64,000 nt of DNA from Phorcus lineatus (lineage: Eukaryota; Mollusca; Gastropoda; Trochida; Trochidae). A program made the position numbers and the translations under genes. This document shows positions 3,290 through 63,519 of this stretch, one piece after another. Numbering within the stretch: position 1 is the first letter of the stretch; each line of letters opens with the position of its first letter. Location: the NCBI GenBank assembly GCA_921293015.1, contig OV121081.1:64373022-64437021 (forward strand), in the 5' to 3' direction. The notes beneath the pieces are model-generated. The model made no database searches. It was given only the letters and a program-made list of their open reading frames with translations, and was not told the DNA's origin.

Positions 3290-3291
3290 AT

Positions 3292-3738: not shown

Positions 3739-3775
<37 letters not shown>
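3736..3775. repeat. (TA)n microsatellite
   Basis: A near-perfect run of alternating T and A directly follows the right inverted repeat of the preceding element and ends at GCATGG. Confidence 0.95.
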
Positions 3776-17610: not shown

Positions 17611-17615
17611 AGTGT

Positions 17616-18040: not shown

Positions 18041-18056
18041 TTCCGACCCCTTAATT
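18041..18056 (-). promoter_or_regulatory. Candidate polypurine tract
   Basis: Immediately upstream of the 3' LTR on the element's strand the sequence reads AATTAAGGGGTCGGAA. It is purine-rich but broken by T and C residues. Its position is exactly where plus-strand priming occurs in LTR elements. Confidence 0.4.
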
Positions 18057-18272
18057 GTGGAATTAAATGAAACAATTACCAACAAAACCATCAAAACTGA
18101 TAGCTTAATTCTACTTTCTGTGAGAAACACAACCTTCTTTGAAATATATCAACAAAGAAATATGAAAAACTTCTTTTAACTTATCAAAAAAGAAATATGG
18201 CAACCTCTTCCAAACTAGTCAGTACCACACAACTCGTCATTAGCTACTTGTTATACCAACTCAATGTCTACT

Positions 18273-23219: not shown

Positions 23220-23236
23220 GTGATTGACAAAAGAAG

Positions 23237-24274: not shown

Positions 24275-24280
24275 ATTTCA

Positions 24281-24792
24281 AATTTCAATATTTCACAGCA
24301 CTTCAGAGTTACTAACATCAGCTTCTTTCAATGTCAGAATTTCAACTTACTGCCAGTCATTTCATTATGAGTACTTGCAATGTCAAATTCACATATTCCC
24401 AAAGTCATTCACTAAATCATACGAATAATGGTGGCAATGTCAATTTCCAAATATATCTACAAAGTCACAATATTCAGTGGCACGAATTCATAACATTGTG
24501 TCCATACGAACGTGGTTGTACTGTACTTGGTTTCACAATTTCAATATTTCACAGCACTTCAGAGTTACTAACATCAGCTTCTTTCAATGTCAGAATTTCA
24601 ACTTACTGCCAGTCATTTCATTATGAGTACTTGCAATGTCAAATTCACATATTCCCAAAGTCATTCACTAAATCATACGAATAATGGTGGCAATGTCAAT
24701 TTCCAAATATATCTACAAAGTCACAATATTCAGTGGCACGAATTCATAACATTGTGTCCATACGAACGTGGTTGTACTGTACTTGGTTTCAC
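24281..24792 (-). repeat. 256-bp perfect tandem duplication in the BEL leader
   Basis: 24281-24536 and 24537-24792 read identically, for example AATTTCAATATTTCACAGCA at 24281 and TTCATTATGAGTACTTGC in both. The duplication lies between the 5' LTR and the ORF1 start codon, so it lengthens the untranslated leader. Small open frames on the plus strand here are only products of the duplication. Confidence 0.95.
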
Positions 24793-24900
24793 AGCGACGG
24801 CCGAGCCTAGCAGGGAACGTCTCATACGGGCGGTCGAATTGTAGCACGTGCAGCTCGGACGAGGCGACGATATCCAACGACGCATATAAAACGTCAATGT

Positions 24901-25325
24901 TGTAACGAACGAACAAACTAAGAAGGGGAGCGACGTCACATCTTTATTCTTTTAGAGAAAGATTGACTGAAAACAATAAACAGGACTTATAATTTAAATG
25001 CATCAGTCAATTAGTATGTTTACGTTCATACATGTGCATGCAGCCGAACTTACAAACTCCATGTTCTTTACAATGAAAAGCTTTTATATTCATTAAATCA
25101 ATTAAACATGTTAAAGTAGGGTTTAATATTGTTTATCTTACCGTTTTATATGCGCTCTCTAAACTTATGAACAAACTTGACTTGAAGACACCAACACGGT
25201 CCCTCCACGAACACGACTTGATACCATGTGACAACCATCTGGAATTACCTGCCCCTAACTGGGCTCACGTGTGCTATGCGCAAACGAGAAAACTTTAAAT
25301 ATAATTTACCAACCAAATCCTTACA
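24901..25325 (-). repeat. BEL 5' LTR
   Basis: 425 bp, identical to the 3' LTR. On the element strand it starts TGTAAGGATTTGG. TTATATTTAAAG follows near 25290-25305 as a TATA-like segment, and AATAAA occurs near the other end. It should carry the element's promoter. The next 100 bp downstream (24793-24900) are unusually GC-rich for this window. No convincing primer-binding site begins directly after the LTR. Confidence 0.95.
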
Positions 25326-27699: not shown

Positions 27700-29200
27700 A
27701 ATAACATCTATATCATAGGTGTTTAACCGTGGTGAGCCAATAAATGTCTATACATGCAAACCGCAATTACTCGTAGCAATGAGTGCTGAAATTTATTACC
27801 TTTTACTTCATAATATATTGACCTTTCATCCGGAAACGAGGTTATAGGAGTATGATACGGCTCATATCTCATCCTTCTTTCCAGTTAGCACTTAACTATC
27901 TGACACTTTCTCACTACTGAACACGATGGTCAGAGGTACGTTCTAGTGTTTGATTTACACTGACAAGCTCAGACATTTGAAGTCGTCGGGATGTTTTATG
28001 AACATTTTAAATGCTTCTCGTCATTACATGAGATCTCACCCTTCTACAATGGTCAGTGAGGAAACAAATAGTTAATATTCTTTCATGTTTATAGAGTGTT
28101 ACAAGATATTAATCAAAACTCAGTTAAGTGAAACGAATTTCCGACAATGTTAAAATACTTGTTTACTGTGAGACAAGTATTAGGCTCTGACATTAACAAC
28201 GAAAATAACTGAAGTTATTTCTGTCTTATAGGTTATTTGAAATGTGGGATTAGCTTCACTCTATCATATGGCAACTTAAGCTCCCTCTGAAACTTCTCAC
28301 CACGTCTTTCTGCCAAGTGTGCTTCATACGACAGCAATGGCTGTTTCAAATGAAATCTCGTTATGCTAGACTAGATACGAAATAAATGGCTGTACCTTGA
28401 AATAAAAGCATTTTTGGTAAAACAAAACAAAATATTTCCTACGTACATTCAGTCAAGTGCATATATTCAAGAGGAAAAAGGTTACGGAAATAGTAATTTA
28501 TTGATTTGAATATAGAAGACGTAACTCCCGCCATGCCGAGCTCATATAATATCTATCATTAATGTTTGGTTCATACTAATGTATTATCTTTATTATAGAT
28601 ATTGATACAGACATTTGTTTGGTTATAAAATGAATGGACATGGGTTATGAAACTTTCAGGTTTTTAGATAATGGGAATTCTAGTTATCCTACTAAATCCC
28701 GTCAGTAGAGGCAGTAAACTCTTCTTCAGGGATATGGCGCTCCCTCAATTGTTCAATTTCAGCATTTCATACACCATTTGAGATGACTATTTTATATTTA
28801 ATGTCAAGATTACATGAAATTGATACAGTAGTCTACATTTTCTCATTGTTATATGGTGTCTATAAACTATTGCTTAGCTGCAGAGATAAATGACAATAGT
28901 AAAACTTAATCCTAGAAGGGACTGTAAACTTCATCGACGACTCTTCAATCAGAAAGTTGGAATAGAAAAGGTTTATTTACATGTAAACCTAGCATTTCAT
29001 CAGAAAGATTTTATTTCGGTCTTGTTAGTATATTGACGTTGTTTTGCTGTTTTATCATCCTTTTAGTTAGGCATTTAAAATGCTTATACATTTGGTTTAA
29101 ACCCACATACTGTCTTTTTTCAGAGTGGCTATAAGCTGTTGTGCCTGTGAGGGAGTTCGAATCCCGTCATGGTTTCGATCCAAATAAGTACAAGTATTTG
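27700..29200. repeat. S module, copy 2
   Basis: Aligns with S copy 1 (GTTTGATTTACACTGACAAG near 27947) and S copy 3 (ACAATGGTCAGTGAGGAAAC near 28038 and near 35187; GACATTTGTTTGGTTATAAA near 28611 and 35748). It keeps the uninterrupted junction CTGACATTAACAACGAAAATAAC (28187-28209), which in copy 3 is split by a SINE tail. Near 29150 GAGTTCGAATCCCG resembles a pol III B box, probably a SINE relic. Confidence 0.75.
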
Positions 29201-29429
29201 TACTTTTGCAGATTTTGTGATAAAAAATATGATAAAATGTTAGATTTAGATTTTTAGGTTTTGGTTAATATCCTTGCAGTAGAAGTGGTACAGTTCCATA
29301 AACCGTCATAAGCCAACAGTAGTCTCTGTTCTAATACGAGCTCTTCTTTGGCTAGAGAATAAGAAGACTGGTTGGAAGCAAGGAAAGTCTGTTGTGAATA
29401 ATCACCTGAACTGCCTCAGTCATTTCCGT

Positions 29430-31620
29430 ATGCTAAGGGAAAGCTAGAATTTATTACAATGTGCAATTTGCACTTTTATTCTGTGAACACATACACCCAA
29501 TTAAGCGACTGCATCATTTCAAAGGCCCAAGTGACAACAAATAATATTCATGCATGCAGTGGTTTCATTGGTACACATTTTGCAAAGAGTTTCTGTTGTA
29601 TTTTGTATTTAGCTGATGCGTACGTCACCTTTACAGTATTTCTAAGAACCTATTTTTCTTAAATGTTAAAATTATTCATTAATATTTCATCAACAATGTT
29701 TATATTCGCATTTCATATGGTTAAATAATCGTGGCAATTGTAAATGATAATTTCACAATATTTAGGTGGAGCTACAATAAAAGAAATCCCTATGGCAAGA
29801 TGTTATTTAATGAAGTAGAAAACGAACATCAATCCTTATAATTGAAAAGCGTGGTCAAACTCGAATAAAAACGATGTAATAAGAATTCTGTTTAAAGCAG
29901 ATATCCTGAAAAGAATTGATATAAATGCAAATGTCACAAATCAAAAAGCATGTTGAAATTGATTGCTGACTTCTGTCCGCTAAATTTGTAGACTGATGCT
30001 GACCAGCATCAACTAATGGTCAAGCAGTGTTTATCATTTCAATTGATTTATTTTAGTTTGTATTCTTATTTCTTTCTAGGGGCGGAGTATGCAGTGGTTA
30101 GCGCGTTTGGCAGATCAAGTGGTCGGGGGTTAGAATCCCGCAAGTGGCTAAACAACGTTCACAGGTTTCACCGCAATGCAAAGCCTCTTGAAGCAGCTTT
30201 AAACCTCAAATCACCTCACCTCACATCACACTTCGATTGATCTAAACAAAAATATTCAGGTAAGGGAAAGCAACGGTTCAAAAGATTCATTGTATAATTA
30301 TAAACTAAACTGTCATATATATCTTGAATTATACATTACTGAAGGTAAAGAGATTGTTATATTTCAGAAAACAGTTTATTAATCTGCGTTTTCAAGTTTA
30401 TCTTATATTCGTGTAAGGGTTTATTTTCAAAGTACATGTATGTACTGGATTAGTTCAAACGTTTACATTCATAGAAATAATAAATGAAGCTAGGTTTAAG
30501 GTAAACAAAATATAAATACATAGAGATTATTACCCGAGGAAGTGTGTCATATGACTTTTAAGTGCGAAATTTTGTATTACCCGAGCGAGAGCGATGGCAT
30601 AACCTATACAACAAAAGCAATCCATTTTACAGCAAAATTATTTCGTTAACAACCTGTTCCTATATTTTGTTTAATTGACGATATCAAGTAAGTTAATAAT
30701 AAAAGAAAAACCAAGAAACATTAAGTCGTTTTGCACATTAGGCAATATCAATCAAGTGTATTCAAATACAAATAGTTCGTGTATTCAAATGACCTACAGA
30801 TGACAACGATTGTGAAGAAAGATATGTTTCAGTTTTCCTTTAACTTTAAGAATCTTTTCAAAATTTAATATTTTGACATTCCTCATGGATCTTCACGCTG
30901 TTATTAATTAACAATTTGGCTTCATACAAATGCCGACATAAAGACTCCTGTCTTTGACAAATGTATCTTCATTATTTTCAAGAAGTAAATGTCAATATTC
31001 AAATTAAACTAGATTTACAAATTGAAAAGACATCCTACCTCAACTTTTCAAATTGTGGAAACCAATTCGACATGAAAAATCCATATAAGTGTTTAAAATC
31101 TTCTGAAAATATCACACCATCGATATCACACTGACCTGCTGAACCACGGTTTTGCGTAATAGGAATTTAGTTTTGGTCGGGGTCTCATACCAATACAGTC
31201 ATCTCCTTTGTCTGTAAGATAAGCGTCATACATCTTTTTCATTTACATTTCAGGCACTGCTTATCCAAGAATGACTGTTGGGGCAACAAAAAAGTATACC
31301 ATGGGCCTTAGAATTCAAGGTCATACTAATAGGTTGAATAACTTGTACGATGTGATCTTTACAAGGATACATAAGCCATGATCACCGAAAAGAACAAATT
31401 AGGCTATGAAAGACGAATTTTATCATACTGTTTTCAGGAAAACAGTTCTTTCCTTACTCTACTACTCCACAATCAACTACTTGTTTCAGCCCAAAGTAAA
31501 CAGATTATATGTAACACCTTTTCAACAATTACTGACATAAAGTCTTTTAATAACTTAAACCCACTTTCAATGACGCTCAATTTCACGTGAATGATTGCAC
31601 TTTAATAAGAGGCTATTGCT
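29430..31620. repeat. R module, copy 3
   Basis: Blocks shared with R copy 4 include CATTTCCGTATGCT with GGGAAAGCTAGAAT (29423-29450 vs 37161-37190), CAAATACAAATAGTTCGTG (near 30763 vs 38521), CTCCTGTCTTTGACAAATGTATC versus CTCCTGTTATTGACAAATGTATC, and CAATGACGCTCAATTTCACGTGAATGATT-like sequence at the right end. It carries a tRNA-derived SINE at 30079. Confidence 0.75.
30079..30231 (+). repeat. tRNA-derived SINE
   Basis: TGGTTAGCGCG (30095-30105) is an A box and GGTTAGAATCC (30128-30138) a B box, spaced as in a tRNA-like pol III promoter. The body continues with CACCGCAATGC and ends AGCAGCTTTAAACCTCAAATC with a CCTCACCTCACATCAC tail. Its position in R3 matches the SINE at 38030 in R4, so either an ancestral insertion was duplicated or the two inserted near each other. 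The ORF that crosses it is not a gene. Confidence 0.75.
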
Positions 31621-31969
31621 CAAAGTTACCAACTGGAAATAATATCTGTTTGATTTACGAAAATGCAATACCCTATAATAGCTCTCATTTTCCAGTATGA
31701 CTAAAGCTGATCTTTGACAGGAATTTTGAAGAAACTAAATCGTCGCTTAAAAAAATTCTTCTTCTTCATTCATTCTTAAAAGATTGAACAACTTCAATTC
31801 AAATTTGCATATCAACGATAAACAATAATATTAAGAGTGAAAGTATTATGTCACATCGCTTAGAATTAACATATGCTAAGACAAAGGGTAATTGTTGTGA
31901 GATTATCAACTAACAATTAAAGAAAAACGAAGGACGGAAATGCAAGTTACAGATCAATTTTACATTTGC

Positions 31970-34950
31970 ATACCTAAGTCTGGCGCATTGTTAGCATGCA
32001 TTTAGTTTCCTGGAATTAGTGGTTTGAATAAATGATATTTAAATCAAAATGTATGAAAAATAACATGAAGCACGCGGATGATTAAGACGAAAGGTTCAAG
32101 TTATCGAAGATGTTTAAGACATAAAACCTGTCGACTTTTATATGCGTGTACAAATGATCCGACAGGTAAATCCTTTCCGTCTTTTTTTTGCGCTGACCTT
32201 TATCATAGCACTACACTTATGTGTAAGAAATAGACGTTCGTCAGTGGCGTTAGAACATTCAGTCTTATACTGAGAGGTTTGATAGACTAGAACGAACTAG
32301 CACGTCAATATAAATAAAGGTGGAAGGACTGTTTCAAGTTTGTATGATCCGACATTCTGCTTTCAGTTGAAGTAGTTTCAATGAGGTGTATATTTAATAG
32401 CTTACAGATCACAAAGAACCGACAATGTTATAATCTAAGCACTGCCGAAATTTAAATTGCATTTCTGAATGTTGAAATTTTTATTGACCCGACATCAAAG
32501 GAATTGGAGTATTTGATATATATTATACAAATATGTTTCTGAAATTTACATAATAAAATGAGGAGATTTGAACGTAGTTGCTATATTTGTTTTTTCATTC
32601 CATATGACCTTATTTCTTTCCAAACGACATGCAAATCCGATCATATGTTAAACTTATTGTGCAAGACATTAAGGAAGTAATAAACAACTCTATGAATGTA
32701 TTATTTGAATAATTGATTTAATAAAATTTCAGCTTTAAAGCGCAGCTTAGGAGAAGTATCTGATAATTCAGTGAAATGCCTTTGATTAGCATAATCGTCA
32801 ATCTGCATAACGACATTATACACAATGTTGAAATGACGCTAATACAGAATAAAGAAGTTGTTTATCCATAAAGGGTCTCATTATTCTTCATCCCTCAAAC
32901 TTAAAAAGGCCATTCAAAGAAGTGTTCTCAAATCTGTCTAAAAAAAGAGAAAGAAATTAGGTTCCCATATATCAACAATTGCATTTATCATTGTATATAT
33001 CGACAAGGTGCAACAGTTGGTCGTGATGTTTTACTTATGTCCATAGTAACTTGTATTTATACAGGCATTCGGATATTGAGTTACATGTCAAGAACGCGAC
33101 GCGTAGGAATAGGTTATATTGTATTGTATATTGACCTGAACAGTAACATAAGTAAACGGTTTATAATTATGAGAGCAAAATTATTCATGTGTGAATATAG
33201 TTTGAAATGTATCTTGATACAACCATAAGCCATTTTATCTAAATAATAACCGAAGTCGAAAAGATAACATAAACATAAAACATAACTCTTCCCTGACAAC
33301 GATTGGTTACTTCTTATCTTTGATTCTTCATGGCCTCAGTGTTCGCAATTTGACACTTTTTTGCCGATGAGTTGCCTTTCAGATAACAGGTGACCTTACT
33401 TCAGTGAATTACATCGTTTCCGTAAATGAGAAGGGATTATTTGATTTTCTTAACAATAGTTACACAATTTTATAGATTATGCTTATTATTTTAGGATTCC
33501 TTGTTCTAATGTTACTATAAATAGAAAGAGATTGATTCATTGCAAAGATATAAATCACTTACATTTTCTTTTATAAAGTAAAACAGCATTCGAAACGATA
33601 GAGGTAAATTTTATTGACATATTTGAGATAATTAAGATAATGAGGCTCTAACGAATTAAAACCATTCCCAATATCTCAGTAAAGGAAACAACAATTTGTC
33701 AATGATTACGTATTTGGTTAACCGTTAACTAATAATAAACATGTCTGAGAAAATAACGTAAAACTTTAAAACAATTATTACTAAAATTATCTTATAATAT
33801 AAATGTGTTGATTTTGTACAGCAACAACACAATAATTTCTAAGTTACAATTGCACTCCTTTACTGTCATTTGAGGGGAGCCGTCCAAATCATTCACAGTT
33901 ATAATTAAACTCTTTGTGAGCTTCCGCAGAAATTATAAGAAGAAATCGATCAGGCCATGATGAAACTAGATTATATTTAAGAACGATTGTCAATGTACTT
34001 CAAATTAAATAAGCAATTATAAGAAGCAATAATGTATGAGAAAGTATGAAGCATCTTAGGAAATGTATTTCCCAGGTCAATGCTTATGAAGATCGAGGTT
34101 TACAATTGAATTAGATAGATTGTATTTCCGCCATGTTCACTCGGAGAAATATTTGAATTTCGAAAATCAATATATATTCCAATCGATGCTTATTCAAACA
34201 GCAATTTGGTAAATATGACATACCAAAAGATAACAATTCCAAATACCAATTTCGAAAATTGAACTTATAAATGTAGACAGTTTAATTAATTAATCTCATC
34301 ACAATGTGCACTTACCGAAACATAGACAAAGGAAACCTAAGCAAAGATTGTAATAGATATTTTAAAATGCAACAGATATGATTTGGTATTGAACTGAATT
34401 TCTCCAGTTGTATGCTTACAAGAATTGATTTGGTATCATTTGTTGTATTCCTACAGTAGTAAAGATTATTTAGTATCTTCTCTTGTGAGGTAATATTTGT
34501 AATAGTTCATGTGGCTTAATTTGTTATCTGATATTTTGAACGATTTTAAATTATTGTGATTATTTTACTCAAATGGACATTAAAGCAGAAAAAATAATTG
34601 TCCACGTTTCAAATGAACCAAAATCAAACCTAGAAGTAAGAATATATAGACGATAAAACATATGCCCTTGTTCGGTAATACCAAATTGCCGTCCGTTTTT
34701 ATGATTCTGACATGAGTATAGAGTTCCTCGCTGTCTTGAAAATTCTCTCAAACCTGTTATCTGCAGTTGGTAATAGAGTCGTAGTTATGGACTCATGGGA
34801 CATTTCACAATAATAGAGTTGATATTGAACCTAAATATCTATGAATTGATCAGCTCTGGTACACGAACGTGAAAAGGGACATTACAGTGAACTCTACCAT
34901 TTGGCATTATGAGATATTGGATATATACAGATGGAAATTGATCCATAAGC
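31970..34950. repeat. T module, copy 1
   Basis: Ordered matches to 40240-42900 include GTTTGAATAAATGATATTTAAATCA (near 32023 and 40247), GACGCGTAGGAATAGGTTAT (near 33098; GACGCATAGGAATAGGTTAT near 41309), GAAAGTATGAAGCATCTTAGG (34041 and 41861), and ATGCTTATGAAGATCGAGG (34081 and 41901). It keeps the empty site AATCGATCAGGCCATGATG near 33944 corresponding to a MITE in copy 2. No gene is seen. Confidence 0.8.
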
Positions 34951-34979
34951 GCTTCTCGTTTCTTATAGATTCGTCTCTG

Positions 34980-36560
34980 TATTGATTGACTGTCTCAGTT
35001 TCAAGCTTATGGAGCTCTGAGTTAAATGGTTAGGAGAAATCTGATAAAATACTTATGTGTGATGAAATTTGCCAACCGATGAGTGTCTTCAAGATCAGCA
35101 TTGTGAACGAGTGTAGTAACAGTGATATGTTATCTAAATGTATCGTTTTAAATGCTTCATGCAATTACCTGAGATCTCACACCTGTACAATGGTCAGTGA
35201 GGAAACAATTAATAAATATTCTTACATGTTCATGGAGTGTTTTATTATTTTAATCCAAACTCAGTTAATAGCAACCGATTTCCACAACTTGATTTTTGTA
35301 TTGCTAGCAGTTGGCTCTGACTTTAACAACGAGTGAGTGAGTGAGTTGTTGTTTAACGCCGCTTGGGCAATATTACAGCCATTAGCGGCGTCTTTAACAA
35401 CGAAAATAACTGAAGTTATTTCTTTTCCCTCTTCTGGTTAATTTGAAATGTCGGATTAGCTTCACATAACTGCTTTTCTCTATCATATGGCGGCTTAAGC
35501 TTCCTATGACCTTTCCCTTAACCGCGTATTTCTGCCAGGTGTGCTCCATATAAGTGCATGGGCTGCTCAATGATTGTTTTGAATGAAATTTACTTATGCT
35601 AGACTAGAAACGACATAAAAGCATTTTTAGTAAAACAGAGCCAAATGTTTCCTACGTGTATTCAGTCAGTTGTATTTGTTAAGAGGAAAGAGAAATTTAA
35701 CATTTGGTTCATACTAGTGTATTATCTTTATTATAGATATTTAATATAGACATTTGTTTGGTTATAAATTGAATGGACATGGGTTATGCAAATTTCAATA
35801 TTTTAGATTGATAAATACTAAATCACGTCAGTAGTTGCAGTAAGCTGTTTTAATGGAGATGAAGCTTCCTCATTTGTTCAATTTCAGCATTTAGAACACC
35901 ATTTGATATAACTGTTTAAATATTTAAGGTCAAGACAACATGAATTGGAAACAGAAAAAGTCTCAATGTTATGTAAGGTATATAAATTATTTTGATCGGC
36001 TTAACTGCAAAGATACATGAGAATCACTTTTAAATCAGGAAGTTTATTACCATGTACACACAGCAGATATTCCTTGTAAATCAATAGGTCATTTCATTAG
36101 AAAGATTCTATCTGAGTTTTCTTACATTGTAGACGTTGTTTTGCTTTTTACAAATTTGTTTAAACATTTTGTCCATCAACCATCAGTTTTTCTTCAAATA
36201 AATACTAATTAAATGACAAGAAGTCTTCATATCAAGTTACACGCTACCCTCTGGTACAACCGTGTCCATACTATCAATAAAAAAAATTTAATATCAACCA
36301 TCATGGAAAATTCACAATGATCAAAGAAGTTCTCACTCAAAGGTTACAATATCTATACTGTTATGTAGCGTTCCCATGCTACAATATTCTTGATTAAGTT
36401 TAAACGGCAAGAATCCCTCTTTGTCCATGGTGGCTATCAGATGTCGTGCCATTGTGTGAGTTCAAAGCCTGTTATAGTTTCCATCGTACTTTTGCAGAAT
36501 ATAATTTAATGGGTCTTTTTTATTTCGATAGATATCCTGGCGGTAGAAGTGGTAACATTC
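34980..36560. repeat. S module, copy 3, with insertions
   Basis: Aligns with S copies 1, 2 and 4. Its left edge (GTGTCTTCAAGATCAGCATTG near 35082) also matches 43360-43400, so the T-to-S junction is repeated in the next unit. It is interrupted by a 59-bp SINE tail at 35333. Confidence 0.75.
35321..35403 (-). repeat. SINE 3' tail insertion with 12-bp target duplication
   Basis: CTTTAACAACGA occurs at 35321-35332 and 35392-35403. The 59 bp between them start GTGAGTGAGTGAG and run through TTTAACGCCGC to TTAGCGGCGT, which is the reversed tail of the gastropod-type SINE also seen at 54.6 kb. The sister S copy has the uninterrupted site at 28187-28209. It is a 5'-truncated retroposition event on the minus strand. 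Confidence 0.85.
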
Positions 36561-36664
36561 TCTTAAAGCTAAATATAAGCTTTACGAGACCATCGGATGG
36601 CCCATTCTCTTCATAAATTCCTACACTAGTTTCAGTTCTTATATGAGCTCATCTCGAGCCAGAA

Positions 36665-37039
36665 AAGAAGAAGCTTGAGTGGTGGCACGTGGTCCTGTGC
36701 TAGCTAAGTTGACTGCTATCAGTGAAGGTCAGCAATATCTGGCGCGGCTCACCGGATGGATGGGTTACCCGATCATTGTTGTATTAACTGAGAGTTTGAA
36801 GGGTTATTCCCTGCCCCACACTAAGGCACAAGTGAACAACTTGTGGTGTCTCCTTAGGCAAGAGACTTTATTCAAATTGTGCCTCTGTTCACCCAGCAGT
36901 AGTAATTGGGTACCTGGTGTAGATTGTGTTGGAGGTGACTTTGAGCGCTGTAACCGGCAGCTTGGGTTAGACCAGGGTAATAGTACAGGATGCGCTTAGA
37001 GCATATCCCTCAGTGACGTGGATTAGCGCAATAAAAATA

Positions 37040-37089
<50 letters not shown>
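36665..37089 (+). repeat. (ATT)n-tailed SINE
   Basis: Contains CTCCTTAGGCAAGAGACTTT and CTGTTCACCCAGCAGTAGTA then TTGGGTACCTGG, a central block seen in many invertebrate SINEs. It ends GGATTAGCGCAATAAAAAT followed by about 50 bp of (ATT)n (37038-37089). It is more GC-rich than its surroundings, which makes a spurious 106-codon frame. The sister R3/S2 junction near 29350-29410 lacks it. Exact ends and target duplication were not resolved. Confidence 0.75.
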
Positions 37090-37119
37090 AAAGCAGAGAA
37101 TGTTAGTTGTAGAATAAGC

Positions 37120-39420
37120 TATGCTACTTAAGAAAAATATTCACCCAAAATGCATCTGTCATTTCCGTATGCTTCGGGAAAGCTAGAATATATTATAATG
37201 TGCACTTTGCACTTAAATTACAAGAACACAGTCACCATTTTTACCGACTGCATCACTGCAAAAAGGCTTCTGTGACAACATATATTATCCGTGCTTGCGG
37301 TATTTTAAGTGGTATTTATTTTATATATAGTTTCGGTTGTAATATATATTTAGCTGTTCCGTATGTCACTTTAACCGAATTGAAAAAATTAAATTAAATT
37401 AAAATTACAGCAAATGTTTTTTTGTAGTTTTCAGCACAAATACATATCAATTGCAATAATAGAAACATATAAATGTATTTCGGATTAAGCTATTGTTACA
37501 AAATGAAAAAAATGCTTTGAAAACTTTGCAAAACAAATTGAATCAAAGTCAAGTAAAAGTAAAACCTATTGAAAACAAGCCGAGTGTACAAATAAATGTT
37601 TCTGAGAATCTTTTTTCTTAAGATGCTAAAATGTTATTCATTAATTGTTGATCAACAATCTCGCATTTAATATGATTTACCAATCGTAAACATTGTAAAT
37701 TCTTCAGATACGTCAATAAAAGAACTCCCTACGGCAAGTTGTGTTATCTTTTGATTTATGGAGGAAAAAACGTTTATTCATAATTAATTGAAAGCATGGT
37801 GACACTTGAATAAAAACGATGTAATCAGCGTTCTGTTTAATGAATATATCCTGAAAAAGATCTATATGAATCAAATGACATAAGCACACTGAAATTGATT
37901 TCTAACTTCTTCATATAGCCAATCATTTAGAAGACTAGTGCTGAAATGCTTAAGGGCAAGCAGTGTTTCCAGTTATTGATTGCAATATTCATTTTAAAGT
38001 AGTAGTAATTTGAAGTAGAGAATCGTTCTACAAGCAGTGGGTTTGGTTGCAATGTACACTGAATGTTAGCGCAGTTCCACCCATGGTTGGCATCTTCCAG
38101 GCGCTGTTCGAAGGTTTAACCGCAATTCAAAGCTTCAATAGCATGCTTTCTCTTTGCAATAATACTAGCAGCCGTGATGTACATGAAATGCTCTTGAAAG
38201 CGGCGTTAAACCCTAAATCACCCCACCTCACCTCAAACTTTGTTTAGACCTAAGCAACAATATTCAGGTACATAATTGGCCATACGTACTTTGACTTTGA
38301 AAAAGTCTCATTTTCATTTGTTTCAATCAATGCTTGAAGTGCTAGCATAACCTAGACAGCCAATGCAAGTAATTTACTGCAATATTAGTTCTTTAACAAA
38401 TTAGTGTCTAGCTCAATATCTAGTTCAATTGACGATATCGAGTAGGTACATGATTCCAATATAGAAAAACCAACAAACATTTAGTTTTTCAAAAACAATT
38501 TTGCACATTATACAAAATACAAATACAAATAGTTCGTGTATTCGAATGACAGTTTGAATTTCTATAACCTTAAAAATTGTCTTTCCGCAAAGATTTCCAT
38601 GTCGTTATTACTCCATAAATTGGCTGCCAACAAATTCCGACATATAGACTCCTGTTATTGACAAATGTATCTAATCAATTCTCAAAAAAGTAAATGTCAG
38701 CCTTCAAATTAAACTAGATAAGAAATTAAAGGACATCCTAACCCTCCATGTCTTATTGTGAAATCAATTCCACATGAAAATGCCGAAGCAATCTAAAATG
38801 ATTTTATGAAAATCAAAGGATCAATGTCACACTGACCAACTGAATCACGATATTAAGTAATAAGACATTTGTTTATAAATCAGCTTTTAAATGATCTTCC
38901 CAATACAGTCATCTTCTTTGACTCTAAGATAAGCTTCATACATCGTTTTAATTTTACATTTCAGGCACTGTTTCTTTTCAAGAAAAAAAAACAAAAACTT
39001 TTAAAAGTATAAATATCATGGGCCTTAGAATTCAAGGTCATTGAATAAACCTTGACGATTTGTCCTTTACAAGAAGACAAAATATACTCGTAATGTTTAA
39101 ATGTCAACCGAAGAAAAAACAAATTAAATTATGAATACAAATTCATATTATTGCTTTTAGGCAAACTAGTTTTATCCTTGCACTACTAGTCTGTCGCAGC
39201 CAAAAATAACCAGATGTTATGTATGCAAAATTTGCAACAATTACTGATATAAAAACTATAATCAACTCAATTTGATTTTCTAATCTAATCTGTCAAATTT
39301 ACACTTTTACAATTTACAAATGCTAACCCAGCATTTAATTTGAATCCACTGTCAATGACACGTGAATGATTTAACTTAAAGGGAGGTTTTGCTCATCATC
39401 AACTTCACAATACAACCATT
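37120..39420. repeat. R module, copy 4
   Basis: Aligns in order with R copy 3 about 8 kb upstream: GCTAGAATATATTATAATGTG (37183), CAAATACAAATAGTTCGTG (38521), GACAAATGTATCTAATCAATT, and ACATTTCAGGCACTG near 38954 (31247 in R3). It contains a SINE at 38030. No coding potential is recognised. Confidence 0.75.
38030..38245 (+). repeat. SINE, same family as 54.5 kb
   Basis: CACTGAATGTTAGCGCAGTTCCACCCATGG, the GCAATAATACTAGCAGCCGTG stretch and CTTGAAAGCGGCGTTAAACCC match the SINE at 54501-54700 block by block, and the tail is CACCCCACCTCACCTCA. Target duplication not clear. Confidence 0.7.
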
Positions 39421-39899
39421 ATATTTCCTTCCAATATGTTATTGGTGTATGAATGATAGCAGCTTCACTGAACAAAATGGTAAATTTTGACCTTTTGGTT
39501 TTTTAATAAGCAATTGAAGGCGCTTTCGTAAAGTAACAGTGCCACAAAATATTAAGAGTAAAATTCACCAAAGCCTAAGGGTAAAACTATATATGTGGTA
39601 CTGATAACGGAAGAAAGGCATTCAACGTTTCAAATTTTGGTATTCGATTTTGCATGGACAAGCCATGGATGAGTGGTGGAAATTAAATCTCACTCCACGT
39701 CCAGTCACAATTTGCATTTTTCTGACAATTGAAGGATCAAAACAATATTTAGACTTAACAACACATTCAAGTTGCGAAGTGCGAATCAAGTACAAAATTG
39801 TCTAAATGGATGTTAGTTCAAGGGAGTTATGCAGAAAACCAGTTCATCAACTTCTTCGGACTGCAAAAACATCGGATTATTGACCAACAGAGAGTTTTG

Positions 39900-40150
39900 T
39901 CCTAGCATGTTTACGGTAATTCACAAGCAGCATGTGTCATGGTTCCTTACCTTGTGACCTTTTAAAACCTTAGACCTGTACCCCATCGATGGAATAAACT
40001 CGATCGATGTGAACGTCATCTTCCCTACACGTCTCAGACCCTTCTAAGACTAACTATTGCATTGTAGGAAGAGTGGGGAGGATGTTGCAAAACGGACTTC
40101 ATCGACGTAGTCAAACGCTGTCGTAAGGATGCCAAGCAAAACGTTTTGTA
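39900..40150 (+). pseudogene. Decayed Tc1-type transposase C-terminus
   Basis: Read across frames, GNSQAACVMVPYL resembles the 'DNA..H.A..V..FL' block. An LDLYPI piece (about 39970-39990) resembles 'SPDLNPIEHLWD' and continues as WNKLDRCER. Then QTLLRLTIAL, a stop, EEWGGCCKTDFIDVVKRCRKDA (about 40030-40140) resembles the Tc1 end 'QTLQQL..AL.EEW..IPQ..I..LI.SM.RRC'. Several stops and frame changes make it dead. The region is absent from the sister T copy near 32000, consistent with insertion. Confidence 0.6.
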
Positions 40151-40967
40151 AATAACAGCCATTTAAAGGTATGACTTTTGGACTCCACCTTGTGGATTAA
40201 TGAGAGCTACGACATCCATGGCATGCTTTAATTTCTTTATAGTAGGGTTTGAATAAATGATATTTAAATCATAGTGTATGAAAAATATAATGAACATCGT
40301 TAAACTTGCGTTCATCTAAGCAACTGCCCAAGCACATGGACGATGAGGGCGAAAGGTATCCCTGTGTGTATGCAATAGACATTCGTCAGTGGCGAGGAGA
40401 CTTGAATAGACTTAGACGAACTTGCATGTCAATATCAATGAAGAAGGAAGGACTGTCTCAAGTTTGTCGGACCAGACATTCTGAAGTAGTTTCCATGAAG
40501 GTGTACATTATGTAGCTTACATATGACAAAGAACAGACAAAGTGAACCTAGCACTGATGTAAATAGAAAAGCATTTTTTATTTTGAAATTTATATTGACC
40601 CAATATGAAAGGGGGCGTAATTGCTACATATAAATTATACAAAAGTTATAAATTTGAATGTGTTTGAAATTGACATAATCATTAGATGGGCGTTTTAAAT
40701 GTAGTAACAATATCCCTTTTGAGACACAACTGCGTCGTTGCGAGCTTGTAATATTTATGGCAAAAGCACTAAAAAGGCTATTGTTTTCATATGAATTTAT
40801 TTCATTTCAAACGACATTATATTCCGATCAAATGTCAAACTTATTGTGCAAGATGTTGAATAAAAATTGAATCATCTGATCTCATCAAATTTCTCTAACT
40901 AACATAGGTTGACTTATCGGTTGTTCAAGTAACTTCAAAGAATTTAACATATGTAATGAAACTTTTT

Positions 40968-41095
40968 CATGGTTAAACAACTTCTTTATTCTGTATTAAC
41001 AACTTTTAGACATAGATCCAAATGTCGTTGTTAAGCAAGTGGCATTCATATATGTCAAAACCTCGACTAAACAGAATAAAGAATGTTTTTATCTA
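40968..41095. repeat. Foldback with AAACAACTTCTTTATTCTG arms
   Basis: TTAAACAACTTCTTTATTCTG at 40973-40993 faces an inverted partner ACAGAATAAAGAATGTTTTT near 41074-41095. The same phrase occurs as an exact 28-bp inverted match between 32845-32872 and 46209-46236, so this is a dispersed repeat end. Confidence 0.5.
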
Positions 41096-41664
41096 TAAAA
41101 AAAAGTGTCATTTTTGTTTATCACTCCAACTTCTAAATGTCATTCAAAGAGGAATTTTCACATCTGCCAAAAGGGAAAAAATTAGAGCCCCGTGTGACAA
41201 CAATTGCATATTTCATTGTACATATCGACAGTTGGTCGTGACAATGTAATTATGTACTTAGTAGCTTGTATTGAAACAGGCATTCAGATACTTAGTTACA
41301 TGTATGAGACGCATAGGAATAGGTTATTTACGTTACCGATGAGTTGCCTTTCAGATTTCAGGTGACTTAATTCAGTAATTAAATCAAGAGCTTTGATTGT
41401 ATGAGAGGGGATGATTGATTTCCTATTAATATTTACACAATGTTATCAAACAGTTAATGCTTATAGCCAATAAATAATAAAAACCACGTTCGAATTTATT
41501 GGTAAATGAAATAAAGTATCACTTTACAATAATTACTACCATAATCTAACATTGTAAGTGTGTTCCTTGTACAGAAACAAATCTAAGTTACAATTTCACT
41601 CTTTTAAGACTCCCTTTGAGTAATATGTCGTGTGACACTGTCATTTGAGGCGAGCTCAATCGAC

Positions 41665-41777
41665 CAGGACCCATATTTTCGAAGCTCTCTTAGTGCTAAG
41701 ATTGTCTTAAGCCAGTGTTAATGTATGGTACTTACGGCTATCTTAGCACTAAGAGAGCTTCGGAAATCTAGGCCCAG
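41665..41777. mobile_element. 107-bp MITE with long inverted repeats, CAG target duplication
   Basis: The arms starting GACCCATATTTTCGAAGCTC (41668) and ending GAGCTTCGGAAATCTAGGCC (41774) are reverse complements over about 40 bp; both contain CTCTTAGTGCTAAGA or its complement. CAG flanks both ends. The sister T copy near 33951 has a single CAG at the same point, which is a clean empty site. Confidence 0.85.
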
Positions 41778-43420
41778 GCTATGATAGAACTAGATTACAT
41801 TTAGAAACGATTGTCAATATAGTTCCGATTTAATGAAATGTAAAGAAGCAATAATGTATGAGAAAGTATGAAGCATCTTAGGAAATGTATTTCCCAGGTC
41901 AATGCTTATGAAGATCGAGGTTGACAATTTATTTAGATAGATTGTATTTCTGCAATTTTTCTTCGGACAATCTTTTTTCGAATTTTCGAAAATCAATATA
42001 GATCCTACTATATGCTTAAGATAACATAAGAGATTAAGATAATCTCTGTAAATATTACATACAAAATTATAACAATTTCCAAATCCCAATTTCTAAATTT
42101 GGAAGTATAAATTTAGACACTTTTATGAGCCCTTACCGAAACATCCATAAAGCAAAACAAAGCAACGATCGTAACCGATATGTCAAAATGCATTAGATAT
42201 GACTTGGCATTGAACTAAATTTCTTCTTTTGCTTGCTTACAAAAATCGATTCGGTATCATTCGTGTTCATTCCAACAACAGTTAGGGTAAACAGTTTTAT
42301 TGATTAATAATATTTTCTAAAAATTACATCACTCCTAAATAGTTGATATTGCTTTTTTAAATGAGATATTTTGACTGATCGTAAATTATTGTAATTGCCA
42401 TTGAAGCAGTAATTTCCCACGTTTCAAATGAACCGAATCAAACCGAGTAACACGAATTTGATCTCACTGCTTGGAATGTATCCACATCACCCACCGGATT
42501 TATGTTTCCTACATGCATATTGAGATCTTCTCCTTTTCTGAAAATTCTCACTAACCTGTTTTCTGTCTTTGGTAACAGAGTCGTAGGTTCTGGACTCACT
42601 GGGCATTTCACAGAGTTGATATTGAACCGAAATACTATGAATTGATCGGCTCTTGTACACTAGCGTGACAACGGACATCAGAGTGTACTCTACCATTTGA
42701 CATTGAAAGATATTGGACATACACAGATGGAATTTGTTCCATAACCGCTTCTGGTTCTTAAAGAATTGATTGACTTCTCAGAGAAGAAGCGATTGCTGTT
42801 TGTTAAGGGCCTTGTAATATGTTCATATTTATACTTTAATGTCAAGCTAATAGCTGCTTCTTGATACTTTTTCTTGTCAAGAATGTGTATCTTTTTCTCA
42901 AACTCATGATATATTTCATAGCATTTCAATACTTATTTTAAGCCAAAAATATTCACACGAAGATTCTTCTGTATTTGAGGCAAGAGGCCAAAACTGAATA
43001 AGTCTGTTTGTCCACAAGCGTGGTACCTGGTTCTCCTGTTGCTTTGGGTCATTGTGAAGAATTTATGACAATTATCAACCGTTACAAAGTATTAATTGAT
43101 TTGTCTTCGTCTGTGAAAAAAGTTACTATATGAACTTATGAAGCTTTTTCAGTTTCAAGTTTGAAACAGGGTTAGCAATATACCTGACATCCTCAGGGAT
43201 AAGGTTTATGAGGAATCTAAGTTACTGGGTCATGTGTGTATCTGTCACAATAGTTTATGTGTAATTGGGTCATGAAGTATTATCTGTTTCAAGTTTTTGG
43301 GGTCCTGAGGAGAAGATCTGATTAATTACTCATGGATGGTGAAAACAGTGGACAAATGAATGTTTCCAAGACCAGCATTGTGACGATCTTAGTAACACTG
43401 ATATGTTAAGTACAAGTAAA

Positions 43421-44050: not shown

Positions 44051-44057
44051 ATTATCA

Positions 44058-44257
44058 CACCCGATACTTACGCTATCACTGCAATAAAGCAAGGGGTTCC
44101 GATCACTGTCAACGCTTTCAATACAATGATAGTGCGGAACCAAGAACCCAGGTTACCGCTATCACTGCATACATGCATGCAGTGATCCCTAATCCGAGTT
44201 CGTGTTCTCTTGGGTTCCCGCTATCACCGTTATCCGTAATCCAGCAGAAAGAAAAGA
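44058..44257 (+). repeat. Left terminal inverted repeat with internal subrepeats
   Basis: Contains GCTATCACTGCA at 44072-44083 and 44158-44169, and GCTATCACCG at 44220-44229, plus a palindrome ATCACTGCATACATGCATGC ending AGTGAT at 44161-44186. Such repeated subterminal motifs are typical transposase-binding sites. It matches the right repeat with scattered substitutions and small indels. Confidence 0.85.
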
Positions 44258-45439
44258 GGGTCATTTAAGCATTTTGCGTATGAATATCAAATGTAGGATT
44301 AGAAGAAGGATGTCGAGTTTATGTCAAATATTTAAGGATAATGAATTTATAGCTGTCTCTAACTACATTAATGGAACCTGAAGGTTAATTAACAAACTAA
44401 AACTTTTAGAAGTCCGAGATACGTAACTCGTTATTCTAAATTGTCGCTAGTTTTCTAGATAAGCGTTTGATACATAATCCTTCTACGTTATATTCATCAA
44501 AAAACAACTTCCGCAACCTTTTTATGAAGAAGAAGGTAACCGAAAGGCCAGCGGTACTTATTTCAAACTGCATTCCTTTGGTGACCTTTTTTTAATATTC
44601 AGAAATAAAATCAACGGTAACTGTATTAGCTCTTTAGTTTTTAAAGAATGACTGATTGATTTTGATAAAGAAGGTTTAAATTTTTTACTTGTTTAACAAC
44701 TTATTTCAAATTTTCTTTCTGTTAATTTCTTCAGTATTACCTTTAATGTGGCAGAAACACGATTTTCTAGATAAACAAAGTGATATCACGAAAACGTAAA
44801 TAAATTTTCCATTCTTAAGATATTTTTTTATTGAACAGAAGCAATTTTAAAACGATAAGTTACGCTATGTGAATACAACTTCCTGCCTCAAATGACGAGG
44901 TGTTCACACACAAAAATGTCGCTATTGGTTTTTGCTTGATATATGAATATTTCCTTTAAGACTACGGATGATCGGCTTGAGTAATGAGACGTTTGAATCT
45001 CTTACATAACGTACTAATTTGGGAAAGTTTATAGATTAACATCTTTCAAAAACTGCTCTATACTACCATAAAGTAATGTCGAGATTTATATCATTTTCTT
45101 TATGACACCTCTGAAGCAGTATCCTTAGGATCCCCAATTGCAAACAAATTAATTCCGAATTACGTTGGTTCATAGTGTTCTTTGAACGATTTATTCCACA
45201 GAAGAAAATGTAACAATAGCCTACTTGATATAATTTATAGAACACTTGGTTGAAATTGGTATGCACGTGCAATAAAAGATTATGTCCAACGAATACCGTC
45301 ACCTTTAAACAATAGATAATGCATCGATTTAGAAGTTAGCTGTTCCCACTCTGACGCTCTGACAGTAAATACTATCTTGTTTGCGGATTACTGGGTCTTC
45401 CGTTTTAAAAGTCGCTGAATTTTTAATTACCCTTAACAA

Positions 45440-45524
45440 TTTCGAACTCCGAACTCGGTTCCACGGAGTAAACCATGCACGGAATATTCGGTACTTCCTT
45501 CCGGATGATTGAAGAGAAAAGAAA
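45440..45524 (+). promoter_or_regulatory. Promoter-like segment with paired ETS-core sites
   Basis: Locally more GC- and CpG-rich than the surroundings, with GTACTTCCTTCCGG (45491-45504) giving two GGAA ETS cores on the minus strand just upstream of an ATG at 45525. Such sites are common in housekeeping and nuclear mitochondrial gene promoters. No TATA box is visible. Confidence 0.4.
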
Positions 45525-46161
45525 ATGGCGGTGGTAAGTGGTAATTTTTTTTACAGATTTTTCACTATCAATCCACAATATGATCTCTTTACTATTTTAT
45601 GATGACAACAATTGTACCTGTAAATCGTAATCAATAATTTCAGTTATACGTTCACCAAATTCATCAATTCTTTATTTGAAGTGGAAGCGAAGGTTAAACT
45701 CAAAAAAGCGGCAAATCATTGAACAAAGATCTTTATAAATAATTAATACAATTATTGGTATATATTTGAGTTGAAATTAGACTTCTTTTTTATTTGATAT
45801 GTTAACGGCCGAATATAGAATCTTATCGGCGACCATTTTGCCTTTCAAATCAATTGTAAGTTCACTCATGTCTATTACTGCCTGAAAATGATCTACTGTG
45901 TTGTTAAGGATGGGTATCGCTCCTCATTTCGTTATGAGGATATATACATTGCAATACAGAAAAGTGAATTGCAATACACATTGGTACACATGGTACTTTT
46001 CATGTTCAAATTTGTCCATGCTCACTTGAATAAATAACGGCCATTAGAACATTGATGAAATCCTCATCTGGCCATTGTTTTGTAAAGAGAGATAATTCAG
46101 TCACTGGTTTCAGACTTTTAACATGTCTGTGCTATTTTCACTTTGCAAATTCACACTTTTC

Positions 46162-46356
46162 TTTGATTGGCATTCTAGAAGTTGATGATATGAAAAGTAA
46201 AGACAATTTTTATGGATAAACAACTTCTTTATTCTGTGGAGGCATATTGTTGATGGTTGCAATTGCCACGTCTCCATGTAGACGGCGTATGACCTCTTTG
46301 ATTGGCATTCTAGAAGTTGATGATATGAAAAGTAACGACAATTTTATGGATAAACA
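46162..46356. repeat. Direct duplication of ~60 bp, 135 bp apart
   Basis: TTTGATTGGCATTCTAGAAG starts at 46162 and again at 46297 and stays matched through TGATATGAAAAGTAA and GGATAAACAA with only small changes. It lies inside the first long intron of the captured fragment. Confidence 0.85.
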
Positions 46357-46806
46357 AATTCACACTTGTTTTACAACTTTCAGTAAAATCACATCTTTTG
46401 GTGACATATGTCTGCAATTTTACAAGGAAATTGTTAATTTTACACTTCTGATAATTGCATATTTTCAGAAAAGTGTACCGGTATGTATCGTGTTGTTTCT
46501 GTATTGTGATATACCGATATTACCATGCACCCTTAGTTGTAGTTTATCAAATCTTTGCTTGAAAGTTGCAAACCTGTGATAACAATAGTAGTCACCTAAC
46601 GTCACCTCTAGACATGTGTATCCTGACCTTAGTGGTGAGACGATATATCCTGATTCTAGTTTAATTGGGGGGAAACGGTATATCCTGGAATTATTGCCAA
46701 GGAACCTGCGAGACAATTATCATCACGATACAATCGTTGCGATACAATACGAATCCTGATTCTCTACAGTTTATGAAAGAACTATAGATAGGACAATAGA
46801 ACAGAA

Positions 46807-46944
46807 ATGTTATTTCTTAGATACCAAATTGACATTGAAAGACTTCAAGATGAGCTGGAAAAACACAACCAAATAAATTACAAATATTGGAAACATTCTG
46901 CACACTTGCATACTGAAAATGGCCTACCATGTTCAAGCTTATAA
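46807..46944 (+). CDS. Doubtful 45-codon frame inside the TIR element
   Basis: From ATG at 46807 the frame reads 45 codons with a charged helix-like core (key piece IDIERLQDELEKHNQINYKY) and then a stop. The composition is protein-like, but it does not fit the phase of the neighbouring exons. Family not recognised; it may be a remnant of another gene or chance. Confidence 0.2.
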   Translation: MLFLRYQIDIERLQDELEKHNQINYKYWKHSAHLHTENGLPCSSL

Positions 46945-47669
46945 TATGTGGTTTGAAAATAAGTGCAAAAGGTTTTTGTACCTTTGTTAGTTATTGTTAC
47001 TTTTTTCTGATACTTTGGGTTATTTTCAGAACCAATCTTTCAAATCAAGAGATGTTGATAACTATATCTTCTTGTAAAAAAATTGGATTTACTTTATTCA
47101 ATGACTAAAATCATGAGATTGTTTTATGATATTTTTATTATGACATTTTCTATAGGCAATTACCGCCGTAAGATGTCTGGTAAACTGATCACCAAAAAGA
47201 GGATGTGACAACCTTCTGGATAAAGTCTCTTCTGTAAAGAGATGGCCTCAAAGACAGGTAATAACAAAGACTTCAATTGGTATATTTCATTATCCACCCA
47301 AAAAATGTTGTGTGAACTTGATTTGGAACTGACATATTTGTAATGTTATGTTTTTGGTTTGATGATGGTCATCACACCAACCCATATCAGGCTGTTTTTT
47401 CAAACTATGAATTCATTGGGTTTTTTTTAACAAGCCTTGTTGATAAATTTATACTTCAATGAAACAATATGAAATCAATTATAAACTGAGCTTGATAATG
47501 TTATTATCATGGTTTTTTTTGTAGCTGAGCCCCTTAAGAAATGTGGGAAGAGACGAGGAGAGGACCAATAAAGACTTGTGTAAGTTAATAAATTTTATTT
47601 ACAATAATTCAGCAGTTTGTATGTAGGTCCTTGTAGGTCCTTAATTGGTTCTGTATATCTCACAAAAAC

Positions 47670-47867
47670 ACTCTTTTCTTTCTGCGGGATTACGGATAGC
47701 GGTGATAGCGGGAACCCAAGAGAACACGAACTCGGGTTAGGGATCATTGCATGTATGCAGTGATAGCGGTAACCTGGGTTCCGGGTTCCGCACTATCATT
47801 GCATTGAAAGCGTTGACAGTGATCGGAACCCCTTGCTATATTGCAGTGATAGCGTAAGTATCGGGTG
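47670..47867 (-). repeat. Right terminal inverted repeat
   Basis: Reverse complement of the left repeat over about 200 bp, from ACTCTTTTCTTTCTGC to GCGTAAGTATCGGGTG, with GCAGTGATAGC repeated as in the left arm. Divergence between the arms suggests the element is not very recent. Confidence 0.85.
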
Positions 47868-48319
47868 ATTATCAAGTATCAAGGACACATTGCAGGCAAG
47901 ATTATCGGAAAGCCACAACTACTGAATTTCATGTAATGTATGTTCACTTGAGTCACAGTGACAAATCATGGCTACAACTGGTCACATGTTTGTTCGAACT
48001 TTCTCATAGAGCTGTCTTTTCCGTGGAAATCCTAGTTCAATCGTAAACAAGTTTTATTCACAAAATCAAACCTAGGCATATGTATTATTTAATCGCATGT
48101 GATTTGTAGTGTGGCTTTCATGAACAGGATTTATGCTCCCAACAAAATTGACCTTGTCAATGGTTATGGTATCAGTAAAGTTTCCAAAAAACACAAATAC
48201 ATCAAGTTTAGTGAAGCTAGCATTTATATTCAAAGTGAAATAACCCTGAACAACTTGCTGCACGGACGGTCCAATGGTCAGACGGGCAGAATGAACGCTA
48301 TTTAACCCCTTAGTACCTT

Positions 48320-62615: not shown

Positions 62616-63519
62616 TGGTTAAGGAAGGATGTACTTACATTCGTTACAAATATGCAAAATGAGTAGGAAAGGATTGCTAACATTCAAAAGAAATATGCTG
62701 GATGATTAATGAGGGATGTACTAAACTTCAATTCCAATGTAAAGGGTAATTAGAGAAGTATTACTAACATTCAATACATATATACAGAATGATTAGGGAA
62801 GGGTGTTCTAACATTCAATATAAACATGCAGAATGATTAGGGAAGGATTTACAAACAGGGAAGGATGTACTAGCATTCAATATAAATATGAATAATCATG
62901 AGGGAAGGATTTACAAACAGGGAAGGATGCACTAGCATTCAATATAAATATGAATAATCATGAGGGAAGGATTTACAAACAGGGAAGGATGCACTAGCAT
63001 TCAATATAAATATGAATAATCATGAGGGAAGGATTTACAAACAGGGAAGGATGCACTAGCATTCAATATAAATATGAATAATGTTTAGGGAAGGATTTAC
63101 AAACAGGGAAGGATGTACTAGCATTCAATATAAATATGAATAATCATGAGGGAAGGATTTACAAACAGGGAAGGATGCACTAGCATTCAATATAAATATG
63201 AATAATCATGAGGGAAGGATTTACAAACAGGGAAGGATGCACTAGCATTCAATATAAATATGAATAATCATGAGGGAAGGATTTACAAACAGGGAAGGAT
63301 GCACTAGCATTCAATATAAATATGAATAATCATGAGGGAAGGATTTACAAACAGGGAAGGATGCACTAGCATTCAATATAAATATGAATAATGTTTAGGG
63401 AAGGATTTACAAACAGGAAAGGATGTACTAGCATTCAATATAAATATGAATAATGATTAGGGAAAGATTTAGATACAGGGAAGGATGTACTAGCATTTAA
63501 TGTAAATGTGCAGAATGAT
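62616..63519 (+). repeat. Satellite array: ~44-bp ancestral unit expanded to a 62-bp unit
   Basis: The core of the array (about 62830-63480) has an exact 62-bp period. Each unit has AGGGAAGGATTTACAAACAG, GGAAGGATGCACTAGCATTC and AATATAAATATGAATAATCA. The left (62616-62830) and right edges carry shorter diverged units built on GATTAGGGAAGG...ACATTCAATATAAA without the extra 18-bp ATTTACAAACAGGGAAGG segment. Unit variants (AATAATCATGAGG versus AATAATGTTTAGG) recur in order, giving a higher-order pattern: the second type occurs at 63077 and 63387, 310 bp (five units) apart. Confidence 0.95.

Follow-up and report, generated by a model that had tools for sequence, protein, structure and literature searches.

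How does the beginning of what looks like a host gene come to lie between the ends of a transposon? The question is raised by a 64,000-nucleotide stretch of the genome of the gastropod Phorcus lineatus (contig OV121081.1; hereafter the window, at its full length), in which an element with long terminal inverted repeats (TIRs) occupies positions 44058–47867 (3810 bp). An earlier note, made from this one copy, proposed capture of the 5′ part of a host gene, from its promoter through exon 3. We compared it with other copies in the window's own assembly (958 Mb; C1, C5, C7, and similar labels denote its contigs). The comparison indicates, with high confidence, that the element is non-autonomous and derives by internal deletion from a large KDZ transposon with two genes, and that its exons belong to the element's own HMG-box gene.

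An internally deleted copy of a larger element

The features of the element are as follows, in window coordinates and with the strand where one was assigned.

44051–44057: left target-site duplication (TSD), ATTATCA, 7 bp
44058–44264, plus strand: left TIR, about 207 bp, starting CACCCG; counterpart of the HMG-gene-side end of the larger elements
45493–45506, plus strand: motif ACTTCCTTCCGGAT, which we take to be ETS-like, ahead of the start codon; also in the C7, C19, and related C1 elements
45525–45533, plus strand: likely first exon of the HMG-box gene carried by the element: ATGGCGGTG, then the strong donor GTAAGT; ATG at 45525
45901–46148: dispersed repeat within intron 1, genome-wide, about 80% identity (40 of 2184 candidates scored)
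46159–46354: 196 bp without counterpart in the right half of C7, in C19, or in C5; contains a 51-bp direct repeat
46609–46838: abundant short dispersed repeat, about 90% identity (40 of 6344 candidates scored in a search with the whole interior)
47155–47257, plus strand: remnant of exon 2 of the HMG-box gene, reading GNYRRKMSGKLITKKRM-stop-QPSG-stop-SLFCKEMASKT in the true frame
47525–47579, plus strand: remnant of exon 3 of the HMG-box gene, EPLKKCGKRRGEDQ-stop, where the relative has EPLEKCSKKIGLAW...; by eye, both splice borders have counterparts there
47622–47624: internal-deletion junction, 3 unaligned bases
47625–47867: transposase-side (opposite) end segment, made up of about 40 unique bp and the right TIR; 96% identity to the C19 element's left end
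47868–47874: right TSD, ATTATCA, 7 bp

The inverted repeats of about 200 bp and the ATTATCA repeats outside them, both noticed earlier, are confirmed. The arms (44058–44264 and about 47664–47867) are 94% identical over 204 bp, the 7-bp direct repeats on either side are perfect, and the termini read CACCCG...CGGGTG. No Rfam family reached its gathering threshold in the window, and a 21-base stretch of the TIR had no match in IMG/VR.

A genome search with the left end, which the earlier note had suggested, gave 16 matches and led to the larger copies. Paired ends lie 8.3 kb apart on C19 and 18.3 kb apart on C7, and window-type ends flank these larger copies at 94–97% identity. Single ends or fragments lie on C5 and C29, where C5:8552378 and the C29 locus match fragments of the TIR and nothing else. 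A related end, of 73% identity, is found as a pair at C1:50853918–50870648, bounding a 16.7-kb element (hereafter the related element), and elsewhere. The related element has its own perfect 7-bp TSD, TACATAT, and identical CACCCG...CGGGTG termini; a 7-bp TSD is thus present in two of the four elements with both ends read (ATTATCA and TACATAT).

The alignments place the two sides of the window element at opposite ends of its larger counterparts. Numbered from 44051, bases 8–3571 match one end of the C7 element at 91–94%, and bases 10–1529 match the equivalent end of C19 at 95.5%; bases 3575–3818 match the opposite end of C19 at 96%. The left 3571 bp correspond to one end of the larger elements, and the right 244 bp match the other end, as found in C19. 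Together, C19, C5, and the right half of C7 cover 3611 of the 3810 bp, leaving gaps at 46159–46354 and 47622–47624. Relative to the window element, C7 has about 1.06 kb extra midway, and the window element has 196 bp of its own, at 46159–46354, with partial similarity to other stretches of the window. A single copy of the deletion junction was found in the genome. The co-linearity with other copies, the junction, and the target duplication are direct observations, and the window element is an internally deleted, non-autonomous copy. The deletion also explains why the right TIR interrupts the third intron, as had been reported: the gene is cut off inside intron 3.

Two facing genes in the larger relatives

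The larger relatives show what was lost. On one strand of the related element, read with stops as X, Pfam models for the KDZ transposase (PF18758, E = 2.3e-18), CxC2 (3.8e-7), and CxC1 (8e-7) all scored above cut-off, the last two being the CxC zinc clusters (PF18803 and PF18802). The C19 element, with window-type ends, holds pieces of this transposase gene (tblastn against a small local set, 2.7e-24), and the preceding cysteine-rich exon is matched there as well. The window copy itself has no KDZ transposase domain, as judged by Pfam on its reading frames: the best match (10 proteins, one of them from 14494–15234) was below cut-off at E = 0.025, and six X-coded frames gave none. PDB searches with the three plus-strand frames of the window element returned gamma-glutamyl hydrolase and plant haemoglobins (E = 0.005–0.44), unconvincing matches that span stops, and one of the searches gave no match.

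A second gene lies on the opposite strand of the related element and faces the transposase gene. Spliced, its exons 1–3 read MALSQ-NWIGNYRRKVSGHPPTRKRLRQPSGYNLFCREMAPKM-DEPLEKCSKKIGLAWTSLPEGRRK..., and its exons 2 and 3 match the exon-2 and exon-3 stretches of the window and C7 in order; a further exon-like stretch matches C7. In two subfamilies the predicted protein scores above cut-off for HMG_box_2 (3.2e-5 and 5.3e-6), and the PDB matches of the HMG peptide are HMGB3 and TFAM (6e-5 to 3e-4). The earlier note had allowed that the exons might prove to be part of the element's own transposase gene. They are indeed part of a gene of the element, which is a second, HMG-box gene facing the KDZ transposase gene.

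Searched as a protein, the HMG-box gene gave 13 matches at nine genome places (all 16 candidates scored). Seven of the nine lie near a KDZ match or one of the element TIRs, and the gene faces the transposase gene in all five places with both matches within 26 kb. Further KDZ loci were found on C2, C11, C12, and C41 and at 35.6 Mb of C7, 21.3 Mb of C37, and 24.8 Mb of C1. Copies of the HMG-box gene at C5:24089351, C25:46032295, and C37:25011667 are 99.4–99.6% identical over 3.1 kb. Near identity between contigs, 99.4–99.6% over 2.5–3.1 kb in all, points to recent movement. On C5, a pair of copies separated by 53 kb shows no difference over 3.1 kb, perhaps through local duplication. At C25:7715415–7715828, HMG-box exon 2 sits within a tandemly duplicated 318-bp unit (98% identity). 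When the C1 subfamily is compared with the C25/C37 subfamily, the protein identity of exon 2 is about 79% (33 residues), and codon positions 1, 2, and 3 agree at 0.79, 0.91, and 0.42 over 33 codons, a pattern that speaks for selection on the HMG protein in the element lineage.

A simple history explains these observations best. A full-size relative carries the transposase gene, with the KDZ domain and CxC zinc clusters, running inward from one end, and the HMG-box gene facing it from the other. The window copy retains one end, which includes the HMG gene's promoter region and exon 1 as well as what is left of exons 2 and 3; after the exon-3 relic its sequence jumps to the terminal ~0.24 kb of the other end. 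Everything between, including the transposase gene and the remaining part of the HMG gene, is lost. The deletion could have arisen by faulty repair, before or after the present insertion. With its ends intact, such a copy may have been moved, or may be movable, by a KDZ transposase that a relative supplies in trans. Maize Ds is an internal-deletion derivative of Ac; there, too, both ends are retained and the middle, including the transposase, is lost, in another superfamily. In full-size elements, the HMG-box protein might bend DNA and so help the transposase to pair both ends, a role suggested by analogy with HMGB1 and RAG.

Several points weigh against assigning the window copy to such an element. 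Some concern the transposase: no copy was found with an intact transposase between exactly window-type ends, Pfam returned nothing for the C19 transposase (too decayed), and the KDZ assignment of the window's subfamily comes from the tblastn match between C19 and the related element. C7 gave no tblastn match to fragments of the relative beyond ends and repeats, and Pfam on the plus strand of one C7 part returned a LINE (long interspersed element) endonuclease and weak coiled-coil-type matches. Others concern the ends. The C7 element (C7:14783332–14801634) is rearranged, with the HMG-gene-side end at both termini and about 740 bp inverted; both of its ends were read and show no target duplication, and it contains a nested LINE-like element whose endonuclease is above cut-off and whose reverse-transcriptase-like frame was seen by eye. 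The right terminus of C19 is altered, which makes its TSD uncertain. The remaining points concern the HMG-box gene. A second HMG model, PF00505, was below cut-off in every spliced peptide tested, the window's own relic peptide had no Pfam match, and the 33-codon comparison yielded no usable dS by NG86 and no ratio of nonsynonymous to synonymous rates (dN/dS) from NG86 or YN00. Two of the nine places, C5:24089351 and C25:7715733, have no reported KDZ or TIR match nearby; C25:46032295 and C37:25011667 have a KDZ match and no TIR match. Both genes were observed between paired TIRs only at C1:50853918–50870648.

Relics of the gene and the search for a parent

How, then, do the exons first read from this single copy fare against those of the relatives? 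The ATG with a GTAAGT donor stands, at 45525. Its counterparts are ATGGCGGTGGTTCAC followed by GTAAGT in C19 and ATGGCGCTGTCACAA followed by GTAGGT in the related element. The assignment of 45525–45533 as exon 1, drawn from the common ACTTCCTTCCGGAT motif, the ATGGCG start, and the phase, is likely. The CG-richest 200 bp of the interior, 45315–45514 (12 CG, equal to the 99th percentile of the window), contain ACTTCCTTCCGGAT. CTTCCGG at 45498, one of three in the window with both strands counted, lies inside this segment, and AAAATGGCGG at 45522, the only one on either strand of the window and 24 bases from it, lies just outside.

The two downstream candidate exons lie at 47156–47257 (102 nt) and 47525–47579 (55 nt); they had been read with consensus splice sites and joins in phase 0. 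The AG/GT borders are present, and by eye four of the five splice sites (the donors of exons 1, 2, and 3 and the acceptor of exon 3) have counterparts in the related gene. The exon-2 acceptor has no counterpart. In two relatives the acceptor stands just before AA(T/C)TGGATAGGC, a stretch that the window copy lacks; the AG inside ATAGGC is an acceptor look-alike in a different phase. The pieces do join in phase 0, but codon 11 of exon 2 is then a TGA (MAVAITAVRCLVN-stop), which had gone unreported, and the presequence-like start of the predicted protein proves to be the product of reading exon 2 in the wrong frame. Exon 2 contains stops in that frame and in its true frame, in which it is 65–67% identical to the related element over 33–34 residues. 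The identity of the gene in the relatives and this decay of its reading frame are plain from the alignments. True-frame stops number two in the window copy and three in C7, two of them common to both. Since these stops are held in common, the gene was probably already damaged in the common ancestor of the window and C7 copies.

The exon calls could instead be chance splice-like motifs in the noncoding filler of a foldback-type element. Taken as ab initio evidence, the splice chain is indeed weak; the region around the start codon is more distinctive. The chain's score of 23.9, from approximate splice matrices, was compared with the rest of the window cut into 108 half-overlapping 2.1-kb segments on both strands. 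When one stop was allowed, 70 of the 108 held a chain at least as good; with no stop allowed, the element's best chain, no longer the one proposed, was equaled or exceeded in 53 of 108. Exon 2 also has stops in each frame. A stricter shuffle test gave 0 of 500, with thresholds set post hoc at the observed values. However, the exon-2/3 stretch matches the open protein of the related element at 47.4 bits, and none of 500 shuffles reached this score (best 23.1; 298 gave any match). The corresponding donors and acceptor, the common promoter motif, and the start codon also speak against chance, which we consider extremely improbable. The exon calls are settled because of this comparison with relatives.

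The promoter-like DNA, the likely first exon, and the exon relics between long TIRs with a TSD are also what an animal Pack-TIR would show, that is, a non-autonomous element that acquired promoter DNA and exons 1–3 from a host gene. Such cases exist, with 370 in 100 genomes according to PMC8277862, where their interiors have a parental copy in the host. The searches speak against such a capture. With exons 2–3 as query (46950–47662), both candidates scored fell in the element family, in the window and in C7. With the promoter and exon 1 as query (45250–46150), the unique part was found in the window, C7, and C19 (40 of 2184 candidates scored), and the remaining matches are the dispersed repeat at about 45901–46148. 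Every place matching exons 2–3 or the unique exon-1 region belongs to the element family, and no parent gene outside it was found at the DNA level, the exon-1 search having scored 40 of 2184 candidates; a short or diverged host match to the exon-1 region may exist, a further point against our reading. None of the nine HMG-protein places fits the window copy better than the element copies, which are the best matches. Moreover, a larger copy has the same exons at the corresponding position, and so, at the protein level, does the subfamily with 73%-identical ends. What stands of the earlier proposal is a non-autonomous TIR element in an animal that carries promoter-like DNA and the 5′ part of a gene; the captured host gene does not, and we regard a Pack-TIR origin as highly improbable. 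The window element resembles animal Pack-TIRs in its gene pieces between TIRs and differs in that its interior is the element's own gene. Pack-MULEs have a Mutator-type transposase and a TSD of about 9 bp, whereas the related element has KDZ and the TSD here is 7 bp. The TSD of FB4 is 9–10 bp (PMC8277862). A 247-codon open frame at 14494–15234 (minus strand) has a weak match to a MULE (Mutator-like element) transposase (E = 0.0042, below cut-off). A link between it and the element was considered and dropped, given the 29 kb that separate them and the KDZ transposase of the relative.

A third alternative pushes the capture back in time. A KDZ ancestor might have acquired a host HMG-box gene before the subfamilies split and kept it since as a gene of the element. 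In favor of this, HMG boxes are widespread among host proteins, introns and a promoter-like motif are present in the element's gene, and its nearest solved relatives are HMGB3 and TFAM. Against this, the best of the nine matched places in the genome are element copies, and fungal KDZ elements presumably carry an HMG domain too, which would place any capture very deep. We judge an ancient capture unlikely, though far less so than either of the preceding alternatives. By our preferred reading, the window copy is a deletion derivative of a KDZ element that carries an HMG-box gene of its own.

Place among KDZ elements and significance

The window element is filed under the KDZ superfamily, as a deletion derivative, and not as Kyakuja, because it has TIRs of ~207 bp. 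Fungal Kyakuja elements, as described in PMC12730594, have 7-bp TSDs and 5′-CA..TG-3′ termini, both found in the window element (CACCCG...CGGGTG); the same text describes them without TIRs, a difference that also counts against our reading. Closer likenesses lie in the KDZ1–3 elements of Cryptococcus, which have TIRs of 139–241 bp, TSDs of 4–8 bp, and a KDZ transposase with CxC1, and more generally in KDZ elements, which are large and carry accessory genes and nested insertions (PMC12810828 and PMC12477816). KDZ1–3 and the KDZ elements of Ectocarpus are examples of these nearest known counterparts. They differ in that the window copy lacks a transposase, the host is of mollusc type, and the second gene encodes an HMG box. 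KDZ elements with accessory genes are already known, and the relatives of the window element are mollusc members with an HMG-box second gene. The excerpts available from the literature searched hold no statement joining KDZ with HMG. TET/JBP gave no Pfam match in the frames scanned, and no search was aimed at TET/JBP by name.

Basidiomycete KDZ elements reportedly include a divergent HMG-domain protein accompanying the transposase (an observation attributed to Iyer et al., 2014, PNAS); the host here, by comparison, is an animal.

The rest of the window contains other repeats. A Bel/Pao long terminal repeat (LTR) retrotransposon occupies 17613–25325 (minus strand), and its 1680-aa open frame has Peptidase_A17, integrase-type, and DUF5641 matches. 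Its 428-bp LTRs (17613–18040 and 24898–25325) are identical, so this insertion is recent. A diverged tandem duplication of about 7 kb, mostly 75–86% identical in pieces, spans 28005–34969 and 35146–42764, and a tandem array of a 62-bp unit, 87–96% alike by self-comparison, lies at 62795–63519. Elsewhere in the genome, the mollusc-haemocyanin domain gave 16 matches in two clusters of eight (C12:7646582–7661095 and 16557773–16572398), and it was found in none of 14 control genomes. An eight-domain layout is that of gastropod haemocyanin subunits. By themselves these matches mark the host as very likely a mollusc, and their layout hints at a gastropod.

More broadly, animal KDZ subfamilies may keep, as the working partner of the transposase, an HMG-box gene that lies convergent to it under a host-like promoter of its own, and the window copy may be a leftover mobile donor of a promoter and first exon. 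We offer this idea tentatively, as plausible and still short of probable. At the level of a single locus, an element's own decayed gene can mimic a captured host gene if one copy is read, and copy comparison settles the matter. KDZ elements with an HMG-box partner gene are documented here in a genome with mollusc-type haemocyanins. The near-identical copies of that gene suggest recent movement, which would make the role of the HMG partner testable.

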